Shown: positions 6,467-24,772 of the stretch, piece by piece | How positions within the stretch are numbered: the first letter of the stretch is position 1 | How the letters are laid out: every line of letters begins with the position of its first letter | The notes under the pieces: generated by a model | What the model saw: only the letters and a program-made list of their open reading frames with translations | What the model was told of the DNA's origin: nothing | The model's database searches: none | Source: Comamonadaceae bacterium | GTDB lineage: Bacteria > Pseudomonadota > Gammaproteobacteria > Burkholderiales > Burkholderiaceae_C | DNA: 64,000 nt | Assembly (NCBI GenBank): GCA_027486495.1 | Contig: JAIXOZ010000073.1 | Coordinates: 1-64,000, forward strand | Direction: 5' to 3' | Program-made: the position numbers and the translations under genes

Positions 6467-6563
6467 GGATTGAGACTGATTGAACTGACACCATCTTTTT
6501 GACTTAACATAATATACATCGTATGTAATTATTGGCAGGACATAACTCAATGGACAGCCTTCA

Positions 6564-6568
6564 GTGAC
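6564..6568. repeat. Left copy of the 5-bp target-site duplication (GTGAC)
   Basis: GTGAC lies immediately outside the left transposon terminus and recurs immediately outside the right terminus at 24768-24772, at exactly symmetric positions. Five base pairs is the duplication size expected for Tn7- and Tn402-type DDE transposases. Confidence 0.65.
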
Positions 6569-6644
6569 CGGTCACAAAGGTAAATTTGATACGGATTTGA
6601 AGGTAAATCTGATGCTACTCATCAATTGCAAGTAAATTTGATAC
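6569..6644. repeat. Left transposon end with three transposase-type repeats
   Basis: Three direct copies of a 16-bp motif, consensus AAGGTAAATYTGATAC, sit at 6577-6592, 6600-6615 and 6629-6644. The first is part of the terminal inverted repeat; the third begins CAAG instead of AAGG. Multiple spaced transposase-binding repeats at each end are a hallmark of Tn7, Tn402 and Mu-like DDE elements. Proposed role: TniA binding sites. Confidence 0.75.
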
Positions 6645-6678
6645 AGAGAGCCTCGCGTCTTGCTGCCGGAATCGAAAT

Positions 6679-7584
6679 TCATTTTTTTGCCTTCCCCAAA
6701 GGAGGAATGCTCTTCTTTGCCACCGATTTGGATTTCTTAGGCAGCACATCGTTGAGGCGCGCAAGATAGCCAGATGCACGCTCGGATAGCAGTGTGTTTT
6801 GTATGCTGAGCTCGTGAAGTTGCTTGCTCAGATTGTCCGCCAGCTCCTGAGCCTCATTTTTTTGTTGTGTCTGCTTCCTTCTTTCAAGCTCTAGCTCGGC
6901 CTGTAATTTTTTAACCTGTTGGCGCTCGCGATCCATTTCAGTCATCAATCTTCGTTCTGAAGACGCAAACTGTGACTGTAACGCCTGGATTTCTGCACTG
7001 TGAGCCCGCAACTGATCATCGTGACGGCGACGCTCCTGATTGCCTTCTGATACCTGCTGCTGAAGGGCCCGCCGCGATGATGTGAGTTCCTCATCCTTCT
7101 TGTTCACAAGCATTTGAAGCTTGTTAGCCTGATCCTGAGATTCGGCCAGCCTGACCTGTAGCGCATCAAGGGCTTGCTTGAGTTCGGAGGCTTGCCGGGT
7201 GAACGCTCCACGCTCAGCTTCAATTTCATCAAGCGCCGTAGTCATTTTCTGTTCTTGCTGACTTGCTGTGTGCGCGAAATCCGCTTTTGACGCTTCAAAA
7301 GTACTGTTTGCCTCCTGCAAAGCGCTTTTCCAAAGGGTGTTCATGGCTATTTGCACAGCGGCTGGAAGATCGCTTGTTTTCTCGTATTTACCCGTTGGTC
7401 CTCCCAAACGTTCTCCCAATGAAGAAAACCAGACATCTAGCATCGGGCCCACAGTGTTGGGCGATCCACGGCCCAATTTCATGCGAACACGTTCGATGGT
7501 GGGTTTGAGTTGCTCATTGAGCAATTCGTCGGCTGCGCCGTTGACATCGGCTTGCTGGACACCCCTTGGACTTTTCACTTGCAT
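6679..7584 (-). CDS. KfrA-domain coiled-coil DNA-binding protein (TnpT-like)
   Basis: 301 residues. The first 60 or so carry a KfrA_N-type helix-turn-helix region (DELLNEQLKPTIERVRMKLGRGSPNTVGPML is read as two short motifs here: KPTIERVRMKLG and GSPNTVGPML). The rest is a long coiled coil rich in Glu, Gln, Lys and Arg, ending in a basic tail (KKSKSVAKKS). KfrA is a plasmid DNA-binding protein; the same architecture occurs in TnpT, which helps the tyrosine recombinase TnpS resolve cointegrates in Tn4651-like transposons. The gene is divergent from such a recombinase with 118 bp between them, and AAGGAG precedes its ATG. I infer an accessory role in resolution or element maintenance; a repressor role is the alternative. 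Confidence 0.78.
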   Translation of the reverse strand: MQVKSPRGVQQADVNGAADELLNEQLKPTIERVRMKLGRGSPNTVGPMLDVWFSSLGERLGGPTGKYEKTSDLPAAVQIAMNTLWKSALQEANSTFEASKADFAHTASQQEQKMTTALDEIEAERGAFTRQASELKQALDALQVRLAESQDQANKLQMLVNKKDEELTSSRRALQQQVSEGNQERRRHDDQLRAHSAEIQALQSQFASSERRLMTEMDRERQQVKKLQAELELERRKQTQQKNEAQELADNLSKQLHELSIQNTLLSERASGYLARLNDVLPKKSKSVAKKSIPPLGKAKK

Positions 7585-7702
7585 CGCCCTGCTCCTTGCT
7601 GTAAATTTACCTACGATAAGAGATATTTATCGTGATTTATAGTGTTAAAAGATAAATAATATTACATGCTATGTGTGATTTCATCAATAAATTAAGCCAC
7701 TC
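7585..7702. promoter_or_regulatory. Divergent intergenic region, candidate recombination/resolution site
   Basis: This AT-rich 118-bp stretch between the KfrA-domain gene and the recombinase gene contains a perfect dyad ACGATAA-N7-TTATCGT at 7613-7633. That is the size and layout of a tyrosine-recombinase core site (two short inverted arms around a 6-8 bp crossover). A second short dyad ACAT-GCT-ATGT lies near 7663-7673. A palindrome GTAAATTTAC at 7601-7610 resembles the core of the transposon-end repeats. In Tn4651 the resolution site lies between tnpS and tnpT; by analogy this is the candidate site. It must also contain the divergent promoters. Confidence 0.5.
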
Positions 7703-8782
7703 ATGAACTTGCGCCTGCCCACGCTCAAAAATACACCCGCACTGGAGCCAGAGGCCCTGAGCGAAGTAACGCAACGCGCCGTCGAAGATCTGCTGCGCGA
7801 AGGTGAATCGAAAAACACCCTCATCAGCTACCGCAGTGCCTTACGCTACTGGGCCGCATGGTTTGGCGCACGCTACGGCCGACAAATTCAACTGCCCGTG
7901 CCCACCGCCTGTGTGCTCCAGTTTGTCGTCGACCACGCAGATCGAACCACCGACAAAGGCCTGGCGCACGAGCTGCCCATCGAGATCGATCAAGCCCTGG
8001 TGAAATCTGGCTTCAAAGGCAAACTCGGCGCACTCGCTCACAACACCCTGATTCACAGAATTGCGGTCCTGTCCAAAGCCCACCAAATTGGCGAGTTCAA
8101 AAACCCTTGCCACGACCCCAAAGTGCGCGAGCTTCTCTCCCGCACCCGCAAGGCCTACGCCAAACGCGGCGCCCTGCCCCAGAAAAAAGACGCCATCACC
8201 AAAGAGCCCCTTCAAGCCATCCTGCAAACGTGCGATGACACGATCATCGGCATCCGAGACAAAGCGTTGCTCTTGTTCGCGTGGTCCAGTGGCGGACGAA
8301 GACGATCCGAGGTGGCCAGCGCAGACATGCAATTTCTAAAACGCACCGGCCCCGATGCTTATCTCTACAACTTGTCGTTCTCAAAAACAAACCAGGCAGG
8401 TGTTGAGCGCGCAGAAAACCACAAACCCATCTTCGGGCTCGCAGCGCAAGCCCTCACGGCTTGGCTCTCTGCTAGCCACATCACGAGTGGTGCCATCTTT
8501 CGAAGAGTGCGCAAAGGCGGTCACATTGGTGAAGCGCTCTCCCCTGCTGCAGTCAAAGACATCGTAAAAAAGAGATGTCTGCTCGCTGGCATTGACGGCG
8601 ACTATGCTGCCCACTCCCTGCGCTCAGGGTTCGTGACTGAGGCGGGACTCCAAAATGTTCCTCTGGCAGAAACTATGGCAATGACGGGACATCAAAGCGT
8701 CTCAACTGTATTAGGATATTTTCAGATCACACAAGCGACTAAGGCAGCAGACCTTTTGAAAGATACGCGGATTGATGTTTGA
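7703..8782 (+). CDS. Tyrosine recombinase / site-specific integrase (TnpS-like)
   Basis: 359-residue phage-integrase-family recombinase. An N-terminal SAM-like DNA-binding domain (NTLISYRSALRYWAAWFG, about residues 38-55) precedes the catalytic domain. Catalytic residues visible are Arg in SSGGRRRSEV, the HxxR box HSLRSGF, His of MTGHQS and the Tyr in VLGYFQ, with the usual spacing. Because the neighbouring transposition genes lack TnsA and a serine resolvase, cointegrate resolution is the likeliest job. Integration of a separate element is possible, but no attachment-site pair or tRNA was seen. No clear ribosome-binding site precedes the ATG. Confidence 0.88.
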   Translation: MNLRLPTLKNTPALEPEALSEVTQRAVEDLLREGESKNTLISYRSALRYWAAWFGARYGRQIQLPVPTACVLQFVVDHADRTTDKGLAHELPIEIDQALVKSGFKGKLGALAHNTLIHRIAVLSKAHQIGEFKNPCHDPKVRELLSRTRKAYAKRGALPQKKDAITKEPLQAILQTCDDTIIGIRDKALLLFAWSSGGRRRSEVASADMQFLKRTGPDAYLYNLSFSKTNQAGVERAENHKPIFGLAAQALTAWLSASHITSGAIFRRVRKGGHIGEALSPAAVKDIVKKRCLLAGIDGDYAAHSLRSGFVTEAGLQNVPLAETMAMTGHQSVSTVLGYFQITQATKAADLLKDTRIDV

Positions 8783-8909
8783 TGCTTTCAAAATGGCGTG
8801 GCCACTTTTAGACGATGAAAAAAACTACAAGGCAAATGCAGAAAGAATGAATCTGTCGCAAAAGTGGGATTCCGCATTCGAAATTGGTGGTGTACGGCAA
8901 AAACGTAAC

Positions 8910-8938
8910 ACCCCGCCAAGAGTTGGCCTTAGCGGGGT
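8910..8938. terminator. Strong hairpin between convergent genes
   Basis: ACCCCGCCAAG pairs with CTTAGCGGGGT (11-bp stem with one mismatch) around the loop AGTTGGC, midway between the recombinase and the convergent lipoprotein gene. There is no T-run on either side, so it may be a bidirectional weak terminator or a processing structure. The rest of 8783-9031 shows no convincing gene. Confidence 0.45.
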
Positions 8939-9031
8939 ATTGAGCTCACAACGGCATCAACGAGATCCATCTGCAGCAAAAACTATTGGCTGCGTCATTG
9001 AGCTGAGCCTTCACCAATCCGAATCACATCG

Positions 9032-9562
9032 TCAAAGCAACGATTTGTCTTTGATCAAACGAGAACGAAGAGCATGAGGCTTGACTTGTTCATCTGTATC
9101 GTTGGTCCAGGCGTGGGAGGAACTGCCCCAAATCCAATCCGTTCCAGTGATACCGAGCAATCGAACTTCTCCCTTTGCACCTGTTATTGTTCGATCAAAC
9201 GTCTTGCCATTAACACTGAAGGTGAGTTTATGAGTGCCCTCTTTTAATCGCAGACGGATCATTGAGTTGGGAACCGTCTCCATCGCGGCACCACCATCAA
9301 CGGAGACATCCAATGGATGATGTCCTTCGCGCCAATATCGCACGACATAAACGGTCAGTGCGTCTGGCGCAGAGGTGAACGACTTTGCTTCTTCGTCGTT
9401 GGCAAGACTAGGTGCCACATCTTTCGTGCAAATGGCATTTGTTCCGCGGTCTGTGTGGCAATACGGTTTCTCAGCCAGTCGATCCACCGGAGTTGCACAG
9501 CCACTGATCCCGAGGACACAAGCTGAGATCACGAGTGTTTTTGTAATCCAATTTATTGTCAT
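9032..9562 (-). CDS. Predicted lipoprotein of unknown function
   Basis: 176 residues with a lipoprotein signal peptide and lipobox LGISGCAT. The mature part includes a short Cys-containing segment (YCHTDRGTNAICTKD). A beta-rich region follows (ALTVYVVRYW, DGGAAMETVPNSMIRLRLKEGTHKL), reminiscent of DUF2846-type outer-membrane-associated lipoproteins with a beta-sandwich that presents a small ligand-binding face. It is the last gene of the leftward metal-efflux operon, 55 bp after its neighbour. No metal ligands stand out. Function not assigned. Confidence 0.75.
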   Translation of the reverse strand: MTINWITKTLVISACVLGISGCATPVDRLAEKPYCHTDRGTNAICTKDVAPSLANDEEAKSFTSAPDALTVYVVRYWREGHHPLDVSVDGGAAMETVPNSMIRLRLKEGTHKLTFSVNGKTFDRTITGAKGEVRLLGITGTDWIWGSSSHAWTNDTDEQVKPHALRSRLIKDKSLL

Positions 9563-9617
9563 ATTTTTCCTAATTAAATGAAATACGCCTAGCTAAGGCA
9601 AGTGACTTGCCGATGTC

Positions 9618-9992
9618 TCACTTCAATACAAAACGCGCCGATGCGGTTTTGCCTGCTGAATTGACTTGGGCAACAACCTTCGTCCCGGGGGTTATCTTGA
9701 AACTGCCTTTGGCTTCAAGCTTGTCCCCAATCGGTTTCAACTCGACTTCTTGCTTATCTGCTCCAGAAAGCAGTGTGATCTTGGCGGTCGCTTTGCTGAC
9801 ATCAACAGCCTTGCCATGATCACGTAAGTACAACTGCAGGACATCGGGTTTTGCAACCAACTCGTAGTCAACATCTTTGACTGTGGTCAGAACACCCCCC
9901 TGCATGGGCTTGTGATCGCCATCATGGGGTCCTGCCCATGCGAGTCCGCTTAGAACGAGCGACGAGGTAATCAACAAAGAATGTAGTTTCAT
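9618..9992 (-). CDS. Small exported protein with His/Asp-rich N-terminus, metal-operon associated
   Basis: 124 residues: signal peptide ending near GLAWA, then a mature N-terminus GPHDGDHKPM and a compact beta-rich domain (VDYELVAKPDVLQLYLRDHG). The start was moved to ATG 9992, preceded by AAAGGAAA; the longer track ORF begins inside czcA. It follows the RND pump gene by 43 bp. The His/Asp cluster and position suggest a periplasmic metal-binding accessory or chaperone to the efflux system. The domain is common next to CzcA-like pumps but has no firmly known function. Confidence 0.78.
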   Translation of the reverse strand: MKLHSLLITSSLVLSGLAWAGPHDGDHKPMQGGVLTTVKDVDYELVAKPDVLQLYLRDHGKAVDVSKATAKITLLSGADKQEVELKPIGDKLEAKGSFKITPGTKVVAQVNSAGKTASARFVLK

Positions 9993-10035
9993 GAAATTTC
10001 CTTTTTGAATTGAAGTTTGAGCTACGGGTGAACGG

Positions 10036-13000
10036 TCAGAACGCTTCAGCGTTCTTGTCTTGTAAGAGAGCCTCGGTAGGTTTGCGACCAAAAAGCCAAA
10101 ACATGGCGGGCGTGAGAAATGTGTCAAGCAACGTTGAGCTGATCAAGCCAGAGAAGATCACCACAGCAACGGGATGCAAGATTTCGGTGCCTGGACGCTC
10201 GGCCTCGAAGAGCAGAGGTGCCAGTGCAAAAGCCGTCACCAAGGCGGTCATCAGAACGGGGCTCAATCGCTCCAGAGATCCGCGCATGATCATTTGCGTG
10301 TTGAAAGACTCTCCTTCAAAGCGCATGAGGTTGATGTAGTGGCTCACCTTCAAGATGCCGTTGCGCACTGAAATTCCAGCCAAGGTGATGAAGCCGATCA
10401 GGGCAGCCACCGATAAAGGCTGACCTGAGAGCCAAAGACCCAATACAGCACCTACGAGTGCAAGGGGAATATTCACCATAATCAGAGCCGACAAGACAGT
10501 TGATTTGTAGCGGCTATAGAGCACTACAAACATCAAAACCACAGAGACCACGGAGAGCAAAGAAATCAGGCGCGATGCCTCCTCTTGTGCCTGGAACTGT
10601 CCTCCAAGGGTGATGAAATACCCCTCGGGAAGCCGAGAGTCCGCAGTGACTTTTCGAATGTCTGCCACGACTTCTGACAGCGGGCGGCCAGAAGCATTGG
10701 CAGAAATCACGATGCGTCTTTTGCCATTGTCCCGACTGATCTGGTTTGGCCCATCTGCGTCTTCAATCGTGGCGATCTTGGACAAAGGCACTCTACCCAA
10801 AGGTGTTTCGATCAACATCTGGCCTAGGCCTTCAAGAGAACGAGCAGACTCAGGCAAACGCACGACGAGCGCAAAGCGGCGACCTTCCTCCATGATCTGA
10901 GTAACACGTTCGCCTTCGGCCAATGCTTGCAATGTCGAGAGCACTTGTGCGCCTGACAAGCCGTATTGAGCGACTGCAGCGTAGTCCAAACGCACTTTGA
11001 TTTGGGGTGCAAGAACTTGTTTTTCGATTTGCAAGTCTGCAATTCCCTCGATCTCGGACAGCCGTGACCGCAGTGCATCGGCTTGCCCTCGAAGCACATC
11101 AAGGTCTTCCCCGAAGATTTTGATCGCGATTTGTGAGCGCACACCAGAGAGCATGTGGTCGATCCGGTGAGATATCGGCTGTCCCACCTCGACGGAGGCT
11201 GGCAAATTGGCCAGTCGCGCTCGGATATCTGCACGAACCTCATCCATTGAGCGTGTTAACTCTGCGGAGGGTTTGATCCCCACATCCAACTCGCTCACGT
11301 GGACGCCCTCGGCGTGTTCATCGAGCTCTGCACGTCCGCTACGCCTACCCACATGCACCACTTCCGGTACCTGTTTAACCAGCACTTCAGCCTGCCGTGC
11401 CAAGGCAGAAGATTCTGTCAAAGTGACCCCCGGGTTCAATCGAATGCCCACAAGCAGCGTGCCTTCGTTGAAGGGCGGCAAGAAGGTGGTCGGGAAGAAC
11501 GGGACAGCTGCAGCAGCCACCAACACCGCGACGCATGCACTTGTGATCGCCACACGCGGCTTGTCCAGAACCATTTGCAAACTTCTTTTGTAGCCTCGCT
11601 TGAGCCAAGCCAGCACCTTGGTGTCGCCATGGTCCAGATTTTTCATGCGAGGCAATAGGTAGTAACTGAGCACGGGCGTCATCGTGACTGACACCAGCAA
11701 AGAGGCCAGCGTCGAGATGATGAAGGCAATGCCCAGCGGTACAAACAACTTGCCTTCCAAGCCCGGTAGGGCAAAAAGCGGCAAGAAGACCAGCACGATG
11801 ATCACGGTCGCATAAAGGATCGCTGATCGAACCTCCATGGACGCCTTGGCCACGAGCGAGAGCAGCGACATGCGCTGGCTTGGATCTTTGGCACGGTCTT
11901 CCTTCAGGCGGCGCAAGATGTTTTCCACATCCACCACGGCGTCGTCCACCAGGCCACCGATGGCAATCGCGAGGCCACCGAGTGTCATGGTGTTGATTGA
12001 CAAGCCAAAATACTTAAACACCAGCGCCGTGATGAAGATGGACACCGGGATGGCTGTAAGCGCAATGATGGTCGGACGCACCGTACCGAGGAAGAAGAAA
12101 AGAATCGCGGCAACAAACACCGAAGCACCAATCAGTTTTCCTTGCAGTGTCGAAATCGACGCCTCAATGAAACTGGCCTGCCTGAAGGTCACACGCGGAG
12201 CCTCCATACCTGCCGGCAAAGAGGCTTTGAGGTCCGAAATGGCCTCCTCAATGGACTTGGTCAGACTGGTGGTGTCAGCCGTTGGTTGCTTTTGGACGCC
12301 CAAAATTACGGCTGGCTTGCCCTCGAAGCCTGCATCCCCGCGTTTGATGGCTGCGGCAAAGGTGACTTCTGCAATCTGTCGCAACAAGATAGGCTGCCCG
12401 TTCTTGGCGGCAATGGCCAGATTGCGCAAGTCTTCCAGCCGAGAGGTACGACCTAGGTTCCGAATCAGGTACTCACGCCCATTGAGCTCCAGAAAACCGC
12501 CCGAGGTGTTGGCAGAAAATCCGCGCAAAGCCGCATCCAACTGGTCTAAGGAGATGCCCAGGTCCGACATGCGAGCCGTGTTGGGTTGAACCTGGAACTG
12601 ACGTACCTCACCGCCAATGGGGATGATCTGTGCGACGCCCGATATAGACAGGAGCCGAGGCCGGAGCACCCAGTCGGCGTACTCACGAACCGCCATGGGG
12701 GAGATTTTTTCCGGATCAACAGGAATCGCGATCTGCATGATTTCACCCATGATGGAACTGATCGGTCCCATCCGTGGAATCACACCTGCGGCCAAGCCTT
12801 CCTCCATAGAGGAAAGTCTCTCGGAGACGAGTTGGCGAGCACGGAAAATTTCTGTATCCCAATTAAAAGTGACATACAAAAAAGACAGACCAGCAGATGA
12901 AGTCGAGCGGATCGATTCAACGCCGGGCAAACCATTCATGGCCGTTTCCAGAGGAAAGGTGATCAGCTGTTCGACCTCTTCTGCGGCCATACCGCCCGCT

Positions 13001-13155
13001 TCGGTCATGATCGTGACGGTGGGTTTGTTGAGATCGGGAAAAACATCCACCGGCGTTCGGGTCAATGTAAAAGCCCCGTAGGCCATCAACACGGCACCAG
13101 CGATCAACACCAGCAGCCGGTTGGCCAAACTATTTTCGAGAAGCCACTTGAACAT
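10036..13155 (-). CDS. Heavy-metal efflux RND transporter, CzcA/CusA family
   Basis: 1039-residue inner-membrane proton/metal antiporter, full length for the HME-RND family. It has a first membrane helix after MFKWLLENSLANRLLVL, a large porter loop, helices 2-6 (about residues 335-540), a second porter loop and helices 7-12. Helix 4 carries the proton-relay acids in GGLVDDAVVDVEN, which differs from the DFG-x-IVDGAVVMVEN pattern of classical CzcA (Zn/Co/Cd). The metal preference should therefore not be assumed. It forms an operon with the adaptor gene (11-bp gap) and outer-membrane channel upstream. Likely exports divalent cations from periplasm or cytoplasm out of the cell. Confidence 0.9.
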   Translation of the reverse strand: MFKWLLENSLANRLLVLIAGAVLMAYGAFTLTRTPVDVFPDLNKPTVTIMTEAGGMAAEEVEQLITFPLETAMNGLPGVESIRSTSSAGLSFLYVTFNWDTEIFRARQLVSERLSSMEEGLAAGVIPRMGPISSIMGEIMQIAIPVDPEKISPMAVREYADWVLRPRLLSISGVAQIIPIGGEVRQFQVQPNTARMSDLGISLDQLDAALRGFSANTSGGFLELNGREYLIRNLGRTSRLEDLRNLAIAAKNGQPILLRQIAEVTFAAAIKRGDAGFEGKPAVILGVQKQPTADTTSLTKSIEEAISDLKASLPAGMEAPRVTFRQASFIEASISTLQGKLIGASVFVAAILFFFLGTVRPTIIALTAIPVSIFITALVFKYFGLSINTMTLGGLAIAIGGLVDDAVVDVENILRRLKEDRAKDPSQRMSLLSLVAKASMEVRSAILYATVIIVLVFLPLFALPGLEGKLFVPLGIAFIISTLASLLVSVTMTPVLSYYLLPRMKNLDHGDTKVLAWLKRGYKRSLQMVLDKPRVAITSACVAVLVAAAAVPFFPTTFLPPFNEGTLLVGIRLNPGVTLTESSALARQAEVLVKQVPEVVHVGRRSGRAELDEHAEGVHVSELDVGIKPSAELTRSMDEVRADIRARLANLPASVEVGQPISHRIDHMLSGVRSQIAIKIFGEDLDVLRGQADALRSRLSEIEGIADLQIEKQVLAPQIKVRLDYAAVAQYGLSGAQVLSTLQALAEGERVTQIMEEGRRFALVVRLPESARSLEGLGQMLIETPLGRVPLSKIATIEDADGPNQISRDNGKRRIVISANASGRPLSEVVADIRKVTADSRLPEGYFITLGGQFQAQEEASRLISLLSVVSVVLMFVVLYSRYKSTVLSALIMVNIPLALVGAVLGLWLSGQPLSVAALIGFITLAGISVRNGILKVSHYINLMRFEGESFNTQMIMRGSLERLSPVLMTALVTAFALAPLLFEAERPGTEILHPVAVVIFSGLISSTLLDTFLTPAMFWLFGRKPTEALLQDKNAEAF

Positions 13156-13166
13156 ACAGTGCCCCT

Positions 13167-14297
13167 TCAGCGAATTTGGTTGATCAGGGTGGCACCCTGA
13201 GTCGCCACGCGATCGCCAGACTTCAAGCCCGAAATCACCGTGACACGAGTGCCATCTAGAGGCTCAAAGGTCACGGTACGAGGTTCAAACTGCTCAGGTG
13301 CAGACTTGACCCAAACCACGTTCTGATTGGCTGCATTCTTCATCAGCGCGGATTGGGGAACCGCAATACCTTTTGTCTTTTGCTTGGACTGGACATAGAC
13401 CCTGACCGGCTGTCCAACAGCCAAACTCAGTTGGTCTGGGCTTCGCACCTGGAAGTTCAGCGGCAAAGCCTGCTCCCGCAAACTGCGCGCAGCGCCGATG
13501 AAGCTCAAAGGTATGCGCTGGGCACCGTCGGCCAGTGTTGCTCCATCGATGTTGTTGGCAAGTGCGCTGTCAAAAGCCAAGGCTTCGACACGCAAACGTT
13601 TGGGATCAACGATTTCGAAAATCAACTCGCGAGCTTCAACCACTTGGCCAGCCACGATTTGCGCGGACGCAATCACGCCCGTGACCGGAGCCACGAGTGC
13701 TTCCTTGCTGGAGAGACCAGCGCTGATGGCATTTATGCGCTCTGACAAGCTGACCACCTCGCTTTCTACGGCCTCCACTTCTTTACGTGGCACAGTGTCA
13801 GATAACTCACGCAATCGTGTAAGACGTTTTTCAGCAAGCATCTTGGCAGCTCGGATTTCAGCCAGTTGAGCAGACTGATTGGCTCTTTCCAAAGGGGCAA
13901 CCGCAGGGATGACATAGGCCAAAATTTGTCCTTTTTTCACTGACTGACCGGCGTTGGGCAAGCCATTGGGACCTGGCTCAATCCGTCCTGCGGTGATGGG
14001 CTGGACTTTCCCCCCCGCGTTCGGATCCATCAGCACCCGCCCATTGAGTTCAAAGGAGCGCGGCACCTCGGCGATTTCCACCGCCAAAGTTCTGACCCCC
14101 AGCTGCCGTTGAGCTGGCTTGGGTAAAAACACACTGCCATCGGCCATGCGTTGGGGACCATTGGCGCTGGCCACTGCAGGTGCTGCGCCGTGGTCATGAC
14201 CTTCTCCCGCATACGCTGAAAGAGCGGCGCTTGCGAGAGTCAAAGTTGTTGCAAGTACGATCAAGTAGCGCTGTTTCGAAGTATTGTTTGTTTTCAT
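13167..14297 (-). CDS. RND efflux periplasmic adaptor, CzcB-like
   Basis: 376-residue membrane-fusion protein linking the RND pump to the outer-membrane channel. A signal peptide ends near AYA, followed by the mature start GEGHDHGAAP, a probable metal-binding cluster. Split barrel-sandwich (lipoyl-like) halves flank a coiled-coil hairpin (AQLAEIRAAKMLAEKRLTRL), then beta-barrel and membrane-proximal domains. It lies between the small membrane protein gene and the pump gene with 11-12 bp gaps. Lacks the long histidine-rich insertion of plasmid CzcB. Confidence 0.88.
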   Translation of the reverse strand: MKTNNTSKQRYLIVLATTLTLASAALSAYAGEGHDHGAAPAVASANGPQRMADGSVFLPKPAQRQLGVRTLAVEIAEVPRSFELNGRVLMDPNAGGKVQPITAGRIEPGPNGLPNAGQSVKKGQILAYVIPAVAPLERANQSAQLAEIRAAKMLAEKRLTRLRELSDTVPRKEVEAVESEVVSLSERINAISAGLSSKEALVAPVTGVIASAQIVAGQVVEARELIFEIVDPKRLRVEALAFDSALANNIDGATLADGAQRIPLSFIGAARSLREQALPLNFQVRSPDQLSLAVGQPVRVYVQSKQKTKGIAVPQSALMKNAANQNVVWVKSAPEQFEPRTVTFEPLDGTRVTVISGLKSGDRVATQGATLINQIR

Positions 14298-14309
14298 TTT
14301 GATGAACCC

Positions 14310-14846
14310 TTATGCACTGCGCGTTTGTTGACGAGACCGAATGATCGCGCCCAGCGCAATCAAGCCCAAAAGACCTGCACTGATCCACATGGCAATGACC
14401 TTCCAAGGAGAAAGACTGGTTGGTACATCTAAGTCCTCATGCAAATCGATCTCTGCAGCAAGCAGATCGACCAAATCAGCGGCTTGGATGGTGGCAGTGA
14501 TCGCAATGACACCTGGTTTGAGCGTGTCCTTAAGGATGACCTCGTATTCACCGACATCATGCTTTTCGGCTTTGTATTTGCTGCCTGCGATGTCCAAGTC
14601 AATTTGAGCGTCGTTTACTGGGCTGTTATCGCTGAAACGATCCAGGTAAAGCGTCAGTTGTTTCCCGTTAATGATGCCGACCAGTTCTAGATCTTCGGAT
14701 GCCGCAGTAAAACGCGGCAACGCGGCTCCAGAGACTTGCGGCGCTGCTTCACCATGGTCGTGACCAGGGCCAGCAATTACTGTTTGACTGAGCAGGGTCA
14801 AGATCAGAGCCATAAAAATGGCCACTGTCGATTGAATGATCTTCAT
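14310..14846 (-). CDS. Exported single-span membrane protein with GHDHG motif, efflux accessory
   Basis: 178 residues: signal peptide (IFMALILTLLSQTVIA), mature start GPGHDHGEAAP, a beta-sandwich-like domain (about 35-125, with LYLDRFSDNSPVNDAQIDLD) and a C-terminal membrane helix (WISAGLLGLIALGAII) with a basic cytoplasmic tail. Start set at ATG 14846 with AAGGAA upstream; the longer track ORF overlaps the outer-membrane gene. Its place between channel and adaptor genes implies a part in the efflux complex or in metal sensing at the membrane. The function is not experimentally known to me. Confidence 0.75.
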   Translation of the reverse strand: MKIIQSTVAIFMALILTLLSQTVIAGPGHDHGEAAPQVSGAALPRFTAASEDLELVGIINGKQLTLYLDRFSDNSPVNDAQIDLDIAGSKYKAEKHDVGEYEVILKDTLKPGVIAITATIQAADLVDLLAAEIDLHEDLDVPTSLSPWKVIAMWISAGLLGLIALGAIIRSRQQTRSA

Positions 14847-14877
14847 GTTGTTCCTTAAATTTTGAGAAGAGGCAACG

Positions 14878-16146
14878 TCATTGAGGCAGCAAGCCCAAGG
14901 ACTGACGCCATGCAGAAATGGCGGCGGACAAGTCGATTTGGCTTCGGACGGCTTGTCGATCTGCTTCAACTGCTTCCGCCTCAATGCGTAACCGGGTAGG
15001 CAGATCTGTCTCACCCAGTCTGAAAGACTTATCAAAGTAGCCACGGGATTGGTTTGCCAATTGAGCCCGGCGTTGTGAAGCTGCGAGTTGAGTTCTTGCA
15101 GCTTCAACCCGCAATGCACCTGCTTGTTGATCCGCTTGAATACGGTCTTTTTCAAGCGTCAACAAGGATTGCGCTTCTATAGCTTCAGCCTTTGCTGTTG
15201 CAATGCGGGCATCATGTCTCGGGCCTGAACTGAACGGCACACGAATACCAATCAGTAAAGTTTTTCCGTACCGCTCCCCAAAAGAACCGCGATCGCGGCT
15301 GGTCGCAAATGTGAGTTCTGGGTTGGACCGCACTTGGTGCCTGATCAGCTCAGCCGTACGCTCGGCTATCGTGATGCGGTCATCCAGTTCAGCCAGCAAG
15401 GGATGATCGATCGCAAGCGCGGCTCCTGGGACTGGTTCTCCGTCAAATTTGACGGACAAGTCAGCCTTTGTGAACCCTCCAGTGAGCGCGGTAAGGTGGG
15501 CAAAAGCTGCTGCAGACGCTGCTTGAGCCTGAGCTGAAAAGGCCTCCGCTGCAGCAACAGCGCCTTCGGCTTGATGCCAATCGGACTTGGCCAGATCACC
15601 GGCATTAGCTCGCTTGGCCACGTCTGATGCCAAGCGTTTCGCATTACCCAATTGTTCGTGTGCCAAATCTGCATCAACGCGAGCTCGCAGCCAATCCCAC
15701 CAAGCGTTCCTCACGGAAGAGGCTAGCCGCAGTTGTGCAGCGCTAAGTCTGCGCTCAACAGACGAGATTTCAGCCTGCGCCAGAACGGCACTGGCCTTGC
15801 GTTGCCCCGGTAACCAAATGGGAATGGCGATACCGAGTTCTGTTTCCCGCATTCCGTTGTTGCCTGTCGTTCGGTCTGATCGCTGACTTACTTCCAGTGA
15901 TGGCGGCTCAGGCAAAAAAAGACCGGCGGATTTGGCCTGGGCCTGTGCGGCATCGCGACGCAATTGCAGTGCACGCGCTTCTGGCTGTCTTTGCCATGCG
16001 GAATCAAAAATATCTTTCAAGGACACCGCGTTAGTTGACGTTGCGGCGGATATGCCTTGAGCTTGGGCTGTCAGCACCAAGCTACTCAGGGTTAAGACCG
16101 ACAACACGAAACGAATCGGTGCCGATCTTTTTTTATTGAAACTCAT
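14878..16146 (-). CDS. TolC-family outer-membrane channel, CzcC-like
   Basis: 422-residue outer-membrane efflux protein. A signal peptide (LSVLTLSSLVLTAQA) is followed by two OEP repeats. The first begins at LKDIFDSAWQRQPEARAL with the GIAIPIWLPGQR signature; the second contains LIGIRVPFSSGPRHDARIA. Between them run long alanine-rich helices that form the periplasmic tunnel. The length agrees with CzcC/CusC relatives. First of the closely packed pump genes transcribed leftwards. Confidence 0.88.
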   Translation of the reverse strand: MSFNKKRSAPIRFVLSVLTLSSLVLTAQAQGISAATSTNAVSLKDIFDSAWQRQPEARALQLRRDAAQAQAKSAGLFLPEPPSLEVSQRSDRTTGNNGMRETELGIAIPIWLPGQRKASAVLAQAEISSVERRLSAAQLRLASSVRNAWWDWLRARVDADLAHEQLGNAKRLASDVAKRANAGDLAKSDWHQAEGAVAAAEAFSAQAQAASAAAFAHLTALTGGFTKADLSVKFDGEPVPGAALAIDHPLLAELDDRITIAERTAELIRHQVRSNPELTFATSRDRGSFGERYGKTLLIGIRVPFSSGPRHDARIATAKAEAIEAQSLLTLEKDRIQADQQAGALRVEAARTQLAASQRRAQLANQSRGYFDKSFRLGETDLPTRLRIEAEAVEADRQAVRSQIDLSAAISAWRQSLGLLPQ

Positions 16147-16292
16147 AACTCATCTCCAATGTTGAAAACATCCAAGGAGATCAGCGAGCAGCGACAGGGC
16201 GTCGCTAGGCGATGAGGAACAACGCAAGATGCGTCATGCTCACCTGCACACAGGGGATTTGAAAGTGGAAAATAAAACCCGAGGCTCGCCGA

Positions 16293-16646
16293 TCAGGCAA
16301 GCAAGGGCCATTGAGGGCGTTCAGGGCGTTCTCGGAATAGTTGAGAACCGGTGGCCTGAAGATGGATTGGATGATCGTCAGAGGCCGTTACTGTTGTCGT
16401 GCTCTGAACGCTGACAAGAGCTGCTGCACAGCCTAAATGGCAAGTAACACAGTCATGATCCATGCTGGCAGATTGAGAGGTGTTTTGACTAGCCTCTAGC
16501 TGATCAGCTGATGCATGTTCGTGGGTGTGATGCCCAGGATGTTTGGCAGTCACGCCGGTTTCGTGCTGGCAATAGCTGGCCACTGCTGCCCAGCTGAACT
16601 GCAAGGGCATCAAAACCAGCAAGAAAATTGCCAAATACTTTTTCAT
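16293..16646 (-). CDS. CzcI-like small periplasmic metal-resistance protein
   Basis: 117 residues beginning with a signal peptide MKKYLAIFLLVLMPLQFSWA. The mature part has a His-rich stretch HPGHHTHEHA and the motif DHDCVTCHLGCAA, as in CzcI from Cupriavidus czc clusters. CzcI is associated with regulation of or periplasmic metal handling by Czc. Its position just upstream of the czcC-like gene is the same as in czcICBA. The C-terminal portion after residue 80 is less conserved. Confidence 0.82.
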   Translation of the reverse strand: MKKYLAIFLLVLMPLQFSWAAVASYCQHETGVTAKHPGHHTHEHASADQLEASQNTSQSASMDHDCVTCHLGCAAALVSVQSTTTVTASDDHPIHLQATGSQLFRERPERPQWPLLA

Positions 16647-16661
16647 GTTTCCTTATTGTAT

Positions 16662-16754
16662 CTACTCACATTTCTCAATGTCATCAGATACGTATTTATC
16701 CTCGTGCAGGTAGAGGTCAATGGAGAGTTTTTTGCGACGCATGATGCTAGTCAT
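16662..16754 (-). CDS. Possible 30-residue small protein overlapping the cadA stop
   Basis: ATG at 16754 overlaps the stop codon of the P-ATPase gene (GATGACTAG) and is preceded by AAGG at good spacing. It encodes a short charged peptide, basic at its start (MRRKK) and acidic at its end (DDIEKCE), with one Cys and one His. It could be a translationally coupled small metal-related protein, or chance. No family recognised; weak evidence. Confidence 0.28.
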
Positions 16755-18984
16755 CGCTTGCCTTGAGAAGTCGCAACCCGTTGAAAACAACCAGCAAGCT
16801 AGCGCCCATGTCTGCAAAAACTGCCATCCACATGGAAGCATTGTTAAAAAGTGCCAACAGCAGAAACACAAGCTTTATACCCAGAGCTAGCGTGATGTTC
16901 TGCAAGAGTACCGTATGGGTACGTTTTGATAGCCTTATCGTTTCGGGCAGTCGGCGCAAGTCATCATTCATGATCAGCACGTCAGCAGCCTCCATAGCGG
17001 CGTGGGTCCCCGCCGCCCCCATCGCAAAGCCAATGTTAGCTTTGGCGAGGGCTGGAGCATCGTTGATGCCATCGCCAGACATAGCAGTCAACCCAAAGCG
17101 TTGTTGTAGCTCGCCAATAGCTTTGAGTTTGTCTTCTGGAAGCAAATTGCCGTGCACTTCGTCAATGCCTGCCTGGTTACCTACAGTTCGTGCTGTAGCA
17201 ATGTTGTCACCGGTTAACATCACTGGCGTCACTCCAAGAGACTTTAGCTCGGAAATCGCTTGTGCAGAAGATGGCTTGATGGTGTCTGCCACTGCGAAGA
17301 TAGCCATTACCCGCTGAGAGTTAGCCAAGATAGTGACCGTCCGTCCAGCCTCTTCATGAACTCTAAGACGTGCTTCGAGTTCTTCTGAACACTGTCCGCG
17401 CTCTTCAATCCAGCGATGGTTAGCAAGCACGTAGGGATGATGGTCTATGACGCCCTGAACACCACGTCCGGCAACCGCTTGAAACTCACCAACATCTTGC
17501 GCCTCGGCTAGGAGTCCCTCAGCGATGGCCTTGGAAACTGGATGATCTGAACGAGCCGCGAGGCTTTTGGCTAACCCGTGCAAGTCACCTTGAGCCACAT
17601 TGGTATCCACAGGCTCGAAAGCAATCAATTTAGGCTTGCCTTCAGTGATGGTTCCAGTCTTGTCCAAAGCTAAGGCCTTGATCTTGCGGGCGTCCTCCAA
17701 ATACACACCGCCTTTGATGAGTATGCCCCGGCGTGCACCCGCGGCAAGGCCGCTGACAACCGTGACGGGAGTAGAAATCACCAGAGCACAGGGACAAGCA
17801 ATGACCAACAGCACCAACGCCTTGTAAAACGCCTGAATCCAGTCCCAACCCATCAGCGAGGGCATTAAAAGAGCTATGGCGACTGCCAGTATGAAAACCG
17901 CCGGGGTGTATATGGCCGCGAATCGATCCACGAAGCGTTGTGTTGGCGCACGCGAAGACTGCGCTTGCTCGACCGCGTGGATAATTCGGGCTAATGTGCT
18001 GTCGGAAGCGGGAGCGGTTACCCGAATTTCCAACGCAGCCGCTTGATTGATGGTGCCCGCGTAGACCTCGTCACCGGAGGTCTTATCCACGGGCAAACTT
18101 TCACCGGTGACGGGAGACTGGTCAACAGCGCTTTGACCCGACATGACGACACCGTCTAGGGGGATGCGCTCACCCGGACGAATGCGCACTATCGCGTTGA
18201 CAGTGACAGTCGTGACAGAAACGCGTTTCCAGAGATTGTCTGGTTGACGTACTTCGGCTTGTTCCGGAGCGAGCGCAAGAAGGCCCTTGATGGCGTTGCG
18301 AGCGCGATCTACTGCGCGAGCTTCAATAGCTTCTGCCATGGCGTAAAGGGCCATCACCATGGCCGCTTCCGGCCATTGACCAATCAAAAAGGCCCCGGTG
18401 ACCGCCACAGTCATTAGAGCGTTGATGTTTAAACGGCCCTGGCGCAAAGCTGCCAGCCCCTTGCCATAGACAGAAAAGCCAGCCAGTCCGATGGCAAAAA
18501 ACGCTAACGACATGCCTACTGCCTTCACTGTCCAACTGTCAGGGAATGCAAAAGCCAAACTTTCTGCGGCCAGTGCCAGCACCAGAGCACTGATCAGCTT
18601 GCCCCATGCACCCCAAAAACCAAATGAGAAAGCAGCCTTTTCTTGCTTTGTTTCACTGTTCAAGCCAATCACTTGCAGTTTGAAACCAGCCATGCGAATT
18701 GCGGAAAGGGCTTGCCGCAAAGCTTCGTCATCAGCGGTGATGCTCAACTCGCGATCACCAAAATTAAAGTGAAGGTTCTTGACGCCTGTCACGCCTGCAA
18801 GCGCATGGCGAATTTCCGACTCCTCGGCTGCGCAGTCCATATTGGCAATGCGTAAACGATGCGCGCCGGTGATTGATTTTGTGGACGCACTCGTTTCAAC
18901 AGCAGTGGCTGCTGCTAGACAAATATTGCTGCAACTAACATCACTGTCTGCTTCAGGTAGCCGATGCTTTTTAGAGGGAATCAT
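16747..18984 (-). CDS. cadA: Cd/Zn/Pb-type P1B ATPase (CadA/ZntA family)
   Basis: 745-residue soft-metal exporter. It has a short Cys-containing N-terminus (SCSNIC) and one HMA domain with NMDCAAEE. The actuator domain has [11 protein letters not shown], the transport motif is CPCALVIS, the phosphorylation motif [10 protein letters not shown] and the hinge [10 protein letters not shown]. The last helices carry the Lys of GIKLVFLLL and the Asp of [14 protein letters not shown], the signature of Zn/Cd/Pb rather than Cu ATPases. ATG 18984 has GGAG at good distance, better than the upstream track start. It is divergent from the MerR gene, whose product should activate it, and leads the leftward metal operon. 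Confidence 0.93.
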
Positions 18985-19004
18985 GATTTTCTCCATATTG
19001 CACA

Positions 19005-19036
19005 CATTGGAAACCCTATAGCCACTACAGTGTCAA
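19005..19036 (-). promoter_or_regulatory. MerR-type promoter/operator for the metal operon
   Basis: On the minus strand TTGACA is followed by CTGTAGTGGCTATAGGGTT and then a weak -10 region. The unusually long 19-20 bp spacer holding an imperfect dyad is typical of promoters activated by CadR/ZntR/PbrR, whose sites resemble CTATAGTNNCTACAGGG. It sits in the 101-bp gap between cadA and the regulator gene. Confidence 0.7.
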
Positions 19037-19085
19037 GCACATAAAATTGATCTTTAGGTCAATCAACGAAAACCAAGGTCAAAGT

Positions 19086-19550
19086 ATGAGGATCGGCGAA
19101 TTAGCCAAAGTCACTCAAACGCAAGTAGAAACAATCCGTTACTACGAGCGCGAGGGCCTGTTGCCAGAATCGGCACGTACAGCGGGAAACTACCGGGTCT
19201 TTACAGACAGCCACATTGACCGCCTGGCTTTCGTTCGACATTGCCGAGGGCTTGACATGACGTTGGACGAAATCAAGATTCTTTTGACGTTCAAGGACGC
19301 ACCTGAAGCAAATTGCGCGCAGGTCAACCACCTACTTGACGAGCACATCGGCCATGTTGCCGCCCGGATTAAAGAGTTAAAAGGTCTGGAGCGAGAGTTG
19401 AAAATTTTGCGGGAAACCTGCCGTGCGTCTCAAGAAGCCAGTCAGTGTGGAATCTTGTCCCAGTTGTCAGCGAGGTCACGTCAAGCTCATGATGCAGGCC
19501 CCCGTAGGGTTCATATTGCGGGGTCACACAGCCTCAAAGGCCACAACTGA
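19086..19550 (+). CDS. MerR-family heavy-metal regulator (CadR/PbrR-like)
   Basis: 154 residues starting MRIGELAKVTQTQVETIRYY at ATG 19086, which has AAGG upstream; the longer track start is unlikely. The N-terminal winged helix contains the usual YYEREGLLPESART and GNYRVF. A dimerisation coiled coil follows. Metal-site cysteines are in EANCAQVN, ETCRAS and QCGIL, the CadR/PbrR pattern of one distal and two C-terminal thiols. Divergent from cadA and expected to twist the long-spacer promoter on binding Cd, Pb or Zn. Confidence 0.88.
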   Translation: MRIGELAKVTQTQVETIRYYEREGLLPESARTAGNYRVFTDSHIDRLAFVRHCRGLDMTLDEIKILLTFKDAPEANCAQVNHLLDEHIGHVAARIKELKGLERELKILRETCRASQEASQCGILSQLSARSRQAHDAGPRRVHIAGSHSLKGHN

Positions 19551-19668
19551 AAGGATGTGGTCTTACCCCGTAATTGGACCGACTCAGCGAGCGAGGCGCA
19601 AAGGCCACTTTGATCCGACACGACACCATGTAGCCAATACTTAACGGGGGACGCGGTCAGGAAATCTC

Positions 19669-21522
19669 CTACCGATGTAATAGGCGACCAAGGCCATACA
19701 TTTCAATATGACGATCGGCTTTGCAGAAGCCATGCCCGTTGATCGCCAGTTCACAAAAATAGCTGTAGTGATCAAAGTCTTGGTTGGCTTGGCTAGCATC
19801 GTCCATTGATTGCTGAGAGGGATAAACTTCGCCAATGGGTTTAGAAATATTATTCAGCTTGCAAAATTCAGCAAATCGCTGACGCATGAATGTGAACAGG
19901 TCGGATGTTCGGATAGAAAAAACTTGAATTTTATATTCAAATAATCTCAAATAAAAATACCCTCCCGTATAAACAAGCAATGCCTTGAGTCTCCGCCTCG
20001 GAGCGATGGAGACATGGTGGATTTTCCATTGGTCAATGAAGCCAATACCTGGCGCAGTGTGCCAGCCGTCGCGTTCTGACCACGTTAAGCAAAGACCGTC
20101 GACACACTTTTGGCGCATCACTCGAATAAAGTTGTCGTAATCCAAAATTCTTTGTGATTTACTGCGTCCAACTTTTCGTGATAACGCCAAGGGCTCATCA
20201 ACATAGCTTGTCAATTCAAGACTTTGTTCGGAAGGTCTAGTGACAGTAATCTGAAAAAGGTTCACCTGAGGAATTTCATCTGTTGACCAGACGCATCTTT
20301 TCTTTCTGATCCCATTTTCAACAAACCGCTCTGCTTCTTTCCAAATTGCAAGGCAATACAATCCGAATACATGATTTCGCACCCAGCTCAAATACCCTGC
20401 CTTTAAATGCCCTTGAAGATACTGCTCAAATCCAGCAGTAGCCTCGCCTAAGACCTCTGAAAATCTGCATACATACCAGTTTGTGGATGTGAATTGTTTT
20501 CGCTTATCCCATCTCCTGATATCGACCGTCGGCTCTACGGTTCTTGCCCAAATCAGCTCAATAAATGCCAAACGGGCAAGGCTATTTGACCGTAGCAATA
20601 CGGCAATCGCCTCTGGAGTTATACACTTTTTGAATTGCCATACCCAATAGTCAGAACGAGGAACTACATGACGTCGCAAGTACCTGGCTATCGCTTTGTA
20701 AACATCTGTAGGTTCAGAACTCATGTGCCAAAACCGGCCTTTACTCCCCTTTTCGGGTTCAGAATCAGGTTTATTTGAGAAGTCTCGAAATTCAATGCTT
20801 CTGGTTCGGTAGGCGTATCGATAGTGCGATGCTTCATATTTAATCAAGGTGGGTGGATAGCCAATGCCATGAATTTCACTCAACTCTTTGAGTCGAATGA
20901 TCCACTCGGTCTCATGCACATTTTCAAATTTTGTGTTCATGTATGAGGCTACATAGATGGCGCGCAATGATGAAAGCCAGTCGACGATGGGCTTTAGTTT
21001 TTCGGTGTCAACAAAGCAATGATCTTTTTCATATAACCGAGTTGGATCGAAATACCTTAAGCTTGAACAATGACACGTATACGGCGATAAAAGAGATTTG
21101 GCATCAACCCTTTCCCCGTTTTTACCCATGCAAGAACATTCGATGTGAAGCGGCTCGCCGTGGATCGGACATTGATTGAGTAATTTCAGAGAAAAGAGCC
21201 TGGTGTGGTACCCCAACTCCAAGCACTTTGGGCAGTAGCCGTTTTGGGGTGTGAACAAGAATTGCCAGCACGCGGGAATAAACCGCTGATCACAAAGTTT
21301 AAAAAGCTCCAGTGGCTCGCCTATCAGGCGGGAAAGAACCCGAAGATCGACATCTTGAACGGCACGATTTGGGCTCAAAGTTCGTTTGAGCTTTGGTGAA
21401 AAATTCTCACTCAATGGAAAGTCAGAAATTCTGAGTTTGTTCAAATAAGCCAGTTTTCTCAAGGTCAGCCAAAGCGACGTGTAGGGCAGCAGCGTGCCCG
21501 GTTTCCATGTCAGAGTTGTCAT
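19669..21522 (-). CDS. tniQ: TniQ/TnsD-family target-selection protein
   Basis: 617 residues. A zinc-finger-like region near residues 95-145 reads CPKCLELGYH, then CPIHGEPLHIEC, as in TniQ/TnsD proteins, where these fingers contact DNA. The length exceeds that of Tn402/Tn5053 TniQ (about 400) and approaches or exceeds TnsD, which suggests sequence-specific target recognition. The C-terminal half is unrecognised and rich in aromatic and basic residues. The coding sequence is clearly more AT-rich than flanking chromosomal genes. It starts 4 bp after tniB ends, so the three tni genes form an operon. Confidence 0.85.
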   Translation of the reverse strand: MTTLTWKPGTLLPYTSLWLTLRKLAYLNKLRISDFPLSENFSPKLKRTLSPNRAVQDVDLRVLSRLIGEPLELFKLCDQRFIPACWQFLFTPQNGYCPKCLELGYHTRLFSLKLLNQCPIHGEPLHIECSCMGKNGERVDAKSLLSPYTCHCSSLRYFDPTRLYEKDHCFVDTEKLKPIVDWLSSLRAIYVASYMNTKFENVHETEWIIRLKELSEIHGIGYPPTLIKYEASHYRYAYRTRSIEFRDFSNKPDSEPEKGSKGRFWHMSSEPTDVYKAIARYLRRHVVPRSDYWVWQFKKCITPEAIAVLLRSNSLARLAFIELIWARTVEPTVDIRRWDKRKQFTSTNWYVCRFSEVLGEATAGFEQYLQGHLKAGYLSWVRNHVFGLYCLAIWKEAERFVENGIRKKRCVWSTDEIPQVNLFQITVTRPSEQSLELTSYVDEPLALSRKVGRSKSQRILDYDNFIRVMRQKCVDGLCLTWSERDGWHTAPGIGFIDQWKIHHVSIAPRRRLKALLVYTGGYFYLRLFEYKIQVFSIRTSDLFTFMRQRFAEFCKLNNISKPIGEVYPSQQSMDDASQANQDFDHYSYFCELAINGHGFCKADRHIEMYGLGRLLHR

Positions 21523-21526
21523 GCGC

Positions 21527-22546
21527 TTACGCCTTTGGTGTTCGTCCCCTAGGTGCCCCCGCTGAAATAATCGCCATCAGGGCACCATGGCCAGAATGCT
21601 CGACGATTTCACTGATTGATTTTTTTGACAGCACATCAGACACAGCTCGTCCCGACGCCAGCAAAAGGAGCATCCTTCTGCACACCACGGAGATGGTTTT
21701 CATTGGAATTTCATGCGGCCCGTCATAGCGATGCGGCAATTGGTTGATGAACTCTTCCCAAAGTGGTGCCGCATAACTGGCAAGGCGAAATCCATTGCTC
21801 CAAAGCTCAGGGACGATGCTCGCAGTAAAAGATATGCCCGATCCCGCAGGCCATTCAGAGCCTTCGTCATACCCCGACATCACGTACCCCAATTGCGCCT
21901 CATCGCAAATGCCATGAAACCTTGCAGCAGTGAGCAAGAATCTCGCAGCGACATGTGCACCGCCTGCCATGGCGAGATTGATCGGATCATCCCGAAACTG
22001 AACAGAAGCGATGGAGATCACACACAACCGAATCCTCTTTTTCTCCAGCATGCTGTGCAGCTCGACAAGCCACAACCACTCGCGCATCGTCATGCCTTGT
22101 GCTTCGTCAATCACCAGTACAACAAAACGTCCACCCGCCTGTGCTGACAATTGTTCAAAGCGGTCGACGAGCATTCCCAAGCGTTCCCTTGGGCTACGGG
22201 TTGATCTGGCCAAATAATGCTTGGCTGCTTCCAGCAAATTTGCATAGAACCGCCCGGATGAGCTGGCACCGCCCGATTCGGTATGACTCCAGATCACCAT
22301 CGGGATGAATCCGCCATACCTTGCAGCAAGCAAGCCTTCGAGCCAGTTATCCACAGCGCTGGATTTACCCAGTCGAGAGGCACCATATATGGTGGCACCA
22401 TCAAATTGATCGTCTAGCCACCGTCCGATGGTGCTCACCATTTTTTCAATGGCGGGGGTGTACAACGAGTAATCTCTCGTGACCAGGGGATGGTCTTTGG
22501 GGATGTGCTCTGGAACGAGCTGAAAGTCTGAGTTTTCCATCACCAT
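21527..22546 (-). CDS. tniB: TniB/TnsC-like AAA ATPase transposition regulator
   Basis: 339-residue AAA+ ATPase that would connect the target selector to the transposase. Walker A is GASRLGKSS (about residue 58) and Walker B is VVLVIDEAQGM (about residue 146), followed by a sensor segment (LCVISIASVQF). It is similar in size to TniB of Tn402 (about 300) rather than Tn7 TnsC (about 550). The ATG lies just before the tniA stop codon, giving a short overlap and likely translational coupling. Confidence 0.87.
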   Translation of the reverse strand: MVMENSDFQLVPEHIPKDHPLVTRDYSLYTPAIEKMVSTIGRWLDDQFDGATIYGASRLGKSSAVDNWLEGLLAARYGGFIPMVIWSHTESGGASSSGRFYANLLEAAKHYLARSTRSPRERLGMLVDRFEQLSAQAGGRFVVLVIDEAQGMTMREWLWLVELHSMLEKKRIRLCVISIASVQFRDDPINLAMAGGAHVAARFLLTAARFHGICDEAQLGYVMSGYDEGSEWPAGSGISFTASIVPELWSNGFRLASYAAPLWEEFINQLPHRYDGPHEIPMKTISVVCRRMLLLLASGRAVSDVLSKKSISEIVEHSGHGALMAIISAGAPRGRTPKA

Positions 22547-24609: not shown

Positions 24610-24663
24610 AAATCCTCCGATCAGAGGTTTTGATGCCAATTATTAAAAAGGATTACTCACACG

Positions 24664-24767
24664 ACGTCAAATTTACTTTTTTTGGGCCGTATCAAATTTA
24701 CTATTAATTGCCGGATCTCTATAGCTACAGGGGGCAACTTTCTGTATCAGATTTACCTTTGTGAACG
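24664..24767. repeat. Right transposon end with three transposase-type repeats
   Basis: Inverted copies of the left-end motif occur at 24744-24759 (GTATCAGATTTACCTT), 24689-24704 (GTATCAAATTTACTAT) and, more diverged, 24664-24679 (ACGTCAAATTTACTTT). The outermost copy belongs to the terminal inverted repeat ending at 24767. The inner two are spaced more widely than at the left end, so the two ends are asymmetric, as in Tn7. Confidence 0.72.
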
Positions 24768-24772
24768 GTGAC
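24768..24772. repeat. Right copy of the 5-bp target-site duplication (GTGAC)
   Basis: Matches GTGAC at 6564-6568 exactly and directly abuts the right terminus. Only 13 bases separate it from the stop codon of the ankyrin gene. Confidence 0.65.

Follow-up and report, generated by a model that had tools for sequence, protein, structure and literature searches.

A probable TnpS/TnpT-like resolution module with a predicted core site in a TniABQ transposon inserted beside dif

Described systems closest to the locus

In the Tn3-family transposon Tn4651, the genes for TnpT and TnpS are divergent and the resolution site rst lies between them (PMC7157771, PMC4619425). The locus described here is alike in having a KfrA_N/coiled-coil protein gene divergent from a tyrosine recombinase gene, with a 7-bp-spacer core and an accessory palindrome between the two genes. 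TnpT was reported to be without apparent homology, and a link to KfrA_N was not drawn there (PMC7157771). We found that TnpT of Tn4651 (pWW0) carries a KfrA_N domain (E value of 2.6e-26) plus a coiled coil.

The transposon that carries our gene pair has relatives of its own. Tn5053 and Tn402, the “res site hunters” (PMC11406308), share with it the order of TniA, TniB, and TniQ, the lack of a visible TnsA, 5-bp duplications, and insertion near resolution sites, which here are dif and plasmid palindromes. The homology is distant, however, with hhalign E values of 1e-3 to 1e-5 against the R751 Tni proteins. The ends are different, and the targets here are dif and tyrosine-recombinase palindromes. 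No open reading frame (ORF) for a serine resolvase of the TniR/res kind was recognized in the element, which has a tyrosine recombinase instead. Tn7-like elements of clades 2 and 3 are alike in their TnsB/TnsC/TniQ-type genes, their arrays of transposase sites at the ends, and a tyrosine recombinase that replaces TnsA, while the portions of that report available to us describe no KfrA_N partner, core site, or dif target (Benler et al. 2021, PMC8649781).

Two further systems resemble the locus in part. Elements of the IS1202 family such as ISAjo2 insert in one orientation adjoining the XerC side of dif or pdif (PMC10132070), but these are 1.5-kb insertion sequences located ~5 bp from the XerC site, and their gene content is unrelated to that of an 18-kb, three-protein transposon. 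The “bipartite module” (BIM) of the beta-proteobacterium Cupriavidus metallidurans is alike by its description, with a tyrosine recombinase and a second, predicted SMC-domain protein, and its mobility was said to be without even theoretical support (PMC3414803). The parts of our module and transposon are of known kinds, with the IS1202 family near dif (PMC10132070) and Tn5053 near res as the known comparators. We did not find the combination or the dif target in the searchable literature, which omits most subscription journals.

The divergent gene pair and its predicted core

The stretch of DNA that we analyzed (the window) comprises 64,000 nucleotides of contig JAIXOZ010000073.1 from a Comamonadaceae bacterium. 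The initial annotation of this sequence had proposed a resolution module copying the tnpT/tnpS arrangement of Tn4651-like Tn3 transposons. Both ORFs and Pfam matches confirmed the gene pair. The minus strand encodes a TnpT-like protein of 301 amino acids with a KfrA_N domain (PF11740, E value of 5.4e-24) and a coiled coil (positions 6679 to 7584), and the plus strand encodes a TnpS-related tyrosine recombinase of 359 amino acids (7703 to 8782; Phage_integrase, PF00589, E value of 1e-12). The catalytic set R-K-HxxR-H-Y of the recombinase is complete (GGRRRSE, SKTNQ, AHSLRSG, TGHQS, and LGYFQ). Within the 118-bp gap between the genes (7585 to 7702), the predicted recombination core ACGATAA-GAGATAT-TTATCGT lies at 7613 to 7633, exactly where it had been placed, and its conserved part, CGATAA-N7-TTATCG, spans 7614 to 7632.

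Taken alone, the dyad in the window is unremarkable (p of ~0.13), since 13% of mononucleotide shuffles of this AT-rich gap yield an equally good palindrome. We judged it to be real because of its conservation among homologues, a check that had been set beforehand, and not because of the window statistics. From 78 loci (one-per-species genomes and annotated plasmid records), we obtained 66 distinct KfrA-like/recombinase intergenic regions. An exact CGATAA-N7-TTATCG is present in 63 of these, which share ancestry and so are not independent, compared to none of 13,200 mononucleotide-shuffled regions. The telling part is that the arms are invariant while the spacer, always 7 bp long, has 39 different sequences. 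The core differs by one or two bases in the remaining three gaps, and its arms reach 13 to 16 bp in several relatives (e.g., ggataaggcacgataa-GGAATAG-ttatcgtgccttatcc).

The gap holds a second palindrome, AATATTACAT-GCT-ATGTGTGATT, at 7658 to 7680, which is a candidate accessory site for the KfrA protein. In at least 20 of the homologous gaps, TCATACAT-N3-ATGTATGA or a near variant is found 27 to 28 bp past the core. This palindrome is perfect in most of the sister Limnohabitans copies described below and is degenerate, or somewhat decayed, in the window. In the tnpT-tnpS gap of Tn4651, we picked out by eye the dyad AATAA-TGGAGTG-TTATT, again with a 7-bp spacer, and this gap also holds a palindrome, TAGTATGTA-TT-TACATACTA. 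The latter lies on the TnpT side, whereas the accessory palindrome here lies on the recombinase side of the core.

Scoring with a profile of the window's recombinase family, the second check set beforehand, supported the proposed kinship of the recombinase with TnpS. Four TnpS-type recombinases scored highest (89 to 133 bits), followed by Cre (61.5 bits) and host XerC, the one Xer protein in the comparison (30.5 bits), and lambda Int was unrelated (−0.6 bits). The closest solved structure to the recombinase is that of Cre. Identity to Tn4651 TnpS is only ~25%, and in a tree that serves only to separate the recombinase from the TnpS clade (its outgroup placement is unreliable), the family is a separate clade next to, and not within, that of TnpS. 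We therefore file the module as TnpS/TnpT-like and not as a member. With KfrA_N in TnpT of Tn4651 and TnpS nearest by profile, this much of the initial annotation stands. It had overlooked the context: the module of Tn4651 sits in a Tn3 element and that of the window in a TniABQ element next to dif.

A TniABQ transposon and its insertion sites

By alignment of its ends, the element spans 6569 to 24767 (18,199 bp), with the module at its left end; the repeat search paired 6564 to 6595 with 24741 to 24772. The 24-bp terminal inverted repeats are CGGTCACAAAGGTAAATTTGATAC (6569 to 6592, plus strand) and CGTTCACAAAGGTAAATCTGATAC (24744 to 24767, minus strand), and they are flanked by the two copies of a 5-bp target-site duplication, GTGAC, at 6564 to 6568 and 24768 to 24772. 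Each end has three GTAAATYTGAY-like sites of the transposase type. Those at the left end (GTAAATYTGAT; 6580 to 6642, plus strand) start at 6580, 6603, and 6632, with the same 23-bp interval between the first two as relatives have at their far ends, and those at the right end (24666 to 24756, minus strand) start at 24666, 24691, and 24746.

Three minus-strand genes encode the transposition proteins. The TniA/TnsB-like DDE transposase (22540 to 24639) has a weak rve/rve_3 match, and its homologue from Aquincola exceeds the rve_3 cutoff. The TniB/TnsC-like AAA ATPase (21527 to 22546) matches Pfam AAA_22 and, by hhalign, TniB of R751 (Tn402) with an E value of 1e-5. The TniQ-like protein (19669 to 21522), a probable target selector, matches TniQ of Tn6677 by profile (PDB 6pig, E value of 3.7e-4), and its Aquincola homologue exceeds the Pfam TniQ cutoff. 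A single-sequence structure prediction of TniQ was discarded (mean pLDDT of 35), and profile matches of TniA to TAL-effector chains were rejected as compositional chance. Identity to relatives is 22 to 24% for TniQ, 51 to 56% for TniA, and 54 to 59% for TniB; the faster divergence of TniQ might be as expected of a target selector.

The element thus has, by remote homology, the TnsB/TniA, TnsC/TniB, and TniQ proteins of Tn7-like/TniABQ transposons, as well as their arrays of transposase sites at the two ends and their 5-bp target duplication. Inspection revealed no recognizable TnsA among the ORFs of the element and no Tn3-type TnpA among the large ORFs of 6569 to 24767. The transposase resembles TniA, and arrays of short sites take the place of Tn3-type ends. 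The ORF list and NCBIfam place the cargo region, including small genes, at 9032 to 19550. It contains RND metal efflux genes (10036 to 16146), a P-type Cd/Zn ATPase gene (16747 to 19005, minus strand), and a CadR/PbrR regulator gene (19047 to 19550, plus strand), which together (10036 to 19550) form a typical heavy-metal resistance set.

Circular bacterial chromosomes almost all have a single copy of dif, usually in an intergenic position. In the window, the chromosomal dif (XerCD; ATTACATACGATGTATATTATGTTAAGT on the minus strand, 6502 to 6529) lies intact outside the element, 39 bp from its end. We identified this site as dif because it matches ACTTGATACGATGTATATTATGTTAAGT, the dif of Rhodoferax ferrireducens (PMC2731167), because it is single copy in the genus, and because the GC skew changes sign across it. 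Of 36 genomes in the genus, 32 contain one and only one copy of the 19-bp core, regardless of whether they carry the element, and none of 24 other genera has it. The skew goes from +0.022 to −0.017 in G006, a complete, element-free genome.

The recombinase and KfrA genes were found together in nine Limnohabitans genomes among 199 relatives. TniA, at 85 to 100% identity, is present in eight of these, and the contig of the ninth stops before it. The recombinase and TniA point toward each other over a distance of 15, 27, 28, or 42 kb, which implies common ends and differing cargo; whatever the cargo, the left end of the element is always just outside the module. Six copies have matching left and right 5-bp duplications (GTGAC, GACCA, GGGAT, TTGAA, CCTAC, and AAGGA), and since these differ between copies, they represent separate insertions. 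The 5-mers of G025, whose ends are on different contigs, differ at one base (TCATC versus TCTTC). In G070, TniA is split in two (L112:2127-2783 versus 701-2143), with the N-terminal part 57% and the C-terminal part 97% identical to TniA of the window, which suggests recombination between element lineages.

Beyond the left (KfrA-side) end, eight of the nine copies have CTTAACATAATATACATCGTATG or a near variant, with the 19-bp dif core ending 42 to 44 bp from the element in one orientation. An empty site is found in G028, where both flanks of the window are contiguous around the expected insertion point. The ninth copy (L149; G060 C51) lies 34 bp from a perfect palindrome with 13-bp arms, TATAGTAGAGAAT-CCCC-ATTCTCTACTATA, on a contig with ORFs that we named by eye as ParA, ParB, a replication protein, and a large tyrosine recombinase. 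The element is next to this 794-amino-acid recombinase, which has DUF3701 (L149:1069-3453 and 1-300), and the palindrome is probably the resolution site of that plasmid itself.

Outside the genus, TniA homologues at 51 to 57% identity belong to elements whose ends, as judged by eye, have the form CGNTYRCRCAACTAAAKTTG. The far end in Burkholderia glumae p86s2p (L146) is 37 bp from a perfect palindrome, CACAGGTGATAA-CTATCC-TTATCACCTGTG, near a plasmid integrase gene, and that in Paraburkholderia hospita is ~34 bp from AGGGTCGGATAG-CCCCAA-CTATCCGACCCT. Perfect palindromes with 11-bp arms occur in 0.3% of random 75-bp stretches from the same plasmid loci. In G111, from another genus of the family, the far end is ~41 bp from the dif TTGACATAATGCACATTGTC, of which five of the six genomes in that genus have a single copy; the half of dif facing the element is XerD in G111 and XerC in Limnohabitans. 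We found no Xer-type palindrome at the end in L152 and only half of one in L184. A GCGGG duplication in B. glumae L146 was judged uncertain, since it would require ends that exceed the family consensus by 5 bp.

The module was not seen in two of these TniA relatives, B. glumae L146 and Polaromonas L152. The G111 element has a non-orthologous pair of its own (L151:3563-5875), in which the gene for a KfrA_N protein (E value of 8.8e-14) diverges from that for a recombinase belonging to another, XerC-like family; the two seem to have been paired independently. Orthologues of our pair also occur on large plasmids lacking an annotated transposase in the vicinity (pQBR103, pA82, and plasmids of Rhodanobacter, Variovorax, Hydrogenophaga, and Diaphorobacter). 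Cointegrate resolution is thus not the sole context of the module; these plasmids suggest that plasmid multimer resolution was its original role or is a further one.

Some other loci combine similar genes. On a Burkholderia aenigmatica plasmid (L145:21926-41806), a mer operon lies between a KfrA_N gene and a TnpS-like recombinase gene, beside TniA/TniB, an arrangement that amounts to a Tn4651-like element whose cargo separates tnpT from tnpS. We rejected it as a TniAB element with a TnpS-like integrase because the integrase groups with Tn4651 TnpS and is beside a Tn3 transposase; it probably belongs to a separate or nested Tn3 element and was left out of the counts. In Variovorax (L034:5724-9469, L026, and L044:55-2856), TnsB/TnsC/TniQ-like genes, with a possible TnsA-like or fused N-terminal part, adjoin orthologues of the window recombinase; L034 and L026 lack both the core and the divergent KfrA gene. 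We assigned these TniA-like genes to different Tn7-like elements. Cupriavidus necator pBB2 (L148:9889-19402) has two tandem TniA-TniB-TniQ-like sets adjoining a tyrosine recombinase, its TniA being ~41% identical to that of the window. Matches to Tn3 and TniA in 50 homologue genomes are at the genome level and were not placed at the recombinase loci.

Proposed resolution pathway and its alternatives

We consider it likely that the gene pair is a TnpS/TnpT-like resolution module integral to a TniABQ transposon that is targeted beside dif and plasmid tyrosine-recombinase palindromes. Without a visible TnsA, this element would transpose replicatively and fuse donor and target, and the module would then split the cointegrate. 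In such a reaction, the recombinase would bind both halves of the dyad at 7613 to 7633 and exchange strands within the 7-bp spacer, and the KfrA protein may bind the neighboring palindrome and act as an accessory factor. Where TnsA is missing, cointegrates and a need for a resolvase are expected (PMC8649781, PMC11406308), and tyrosine or serine resolvases are present in Tn7-like elements that lack tnsA (PMC8649781). The module at the element end has what a resolvase requires, and we recognized nothing else in the element that does. TniQ and TniB may steer the end with the KfrA gene to a set position next to dif or plasmid tyrosine-recombinase palindromes, with the target probably sensed via DNA held by bound recombinases. 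As the target preference is seen without the module in B. glumae, targeting is more likely to depend on TniQ/TniB than on the recombinase.

Could the module instead be a plasmid multimer-resolution cassette carried as cargo, resolving multimers of the host replicon and having no part in transposition? The orthologues on large plasmids without annotated transposases would fit, as would a KfrA_N domain typical of plasmid proteins and Cre as the closest solved structure. We think this unlikely because the Limnohabitans module is flanked by the left end of the element regardless of cargo, because eight copies are chromosomal beside dif, where dimer resolution already exists, and because a related element has another KfrA_N/recombinase pair close to the corresponding end.

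Many integrative elements exploit Xer sites, and the insertion beside dif is precise and oriented, as would be the case if the recombinase integrated the island at dif site specifically and the Tni genes were bystanders. We rejected this explanation, to which we give hardly any credence. Here dif is intact 39 bp outside the end, and the junctions are 24-bp inverted repeats with copy-specific 5-bp duplications, typical of DDE transposition. The conserved core, with its 7-bp spacer and CGATAA arms, is 1 kb inside the element, and the module-less B. glumae L146 element also ends 37 bp from an Xer-type palindrome. A further explanation starts from the place of the dyad between divergent genes. KfrA proteins are DNA-binding regulators, and the dyad might be a mere operator, with the divergent promoters regulated by the KfrA protein or the recombinase bound there. 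This seems quite improbable to us, given that invariant arms, an exact 7-bp spacer, and 39 spacer sequences are expected of a tyrosine-recombinase core, that the arms extend to 13 to 16 bp in several relatives, and that a separate palindrome is available as an operator or accessory site. Regulation and recombination by the dyad are not mutually exclusive.

Returning to the resolution module in a targeted transposon, we lean toward a broader reading for the TniABQ family. Its members would use Xer-type sites (dif and plasmid multimer-resolution sites) as attachment sites, recognized ~47 to 53 bp from the site center via TniQ and bound recombinases, and would have repeatedly captured plasmid-type KfrA_N/tyrosine-recombinase modules as cointegrate resolvases. 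As a single-copy and usually intergenic site, dif is an ideal safe harbor. A large cargo transposon homing on dif would be the Xer-system counterpart of the Tn5053 “res hunters,” and the sensing of a host recombinase complex as a target could then be tested in Escherichia coli. Taken together, these data suggest a class of mobile elements that uses DNA-resolution sites as docking points.
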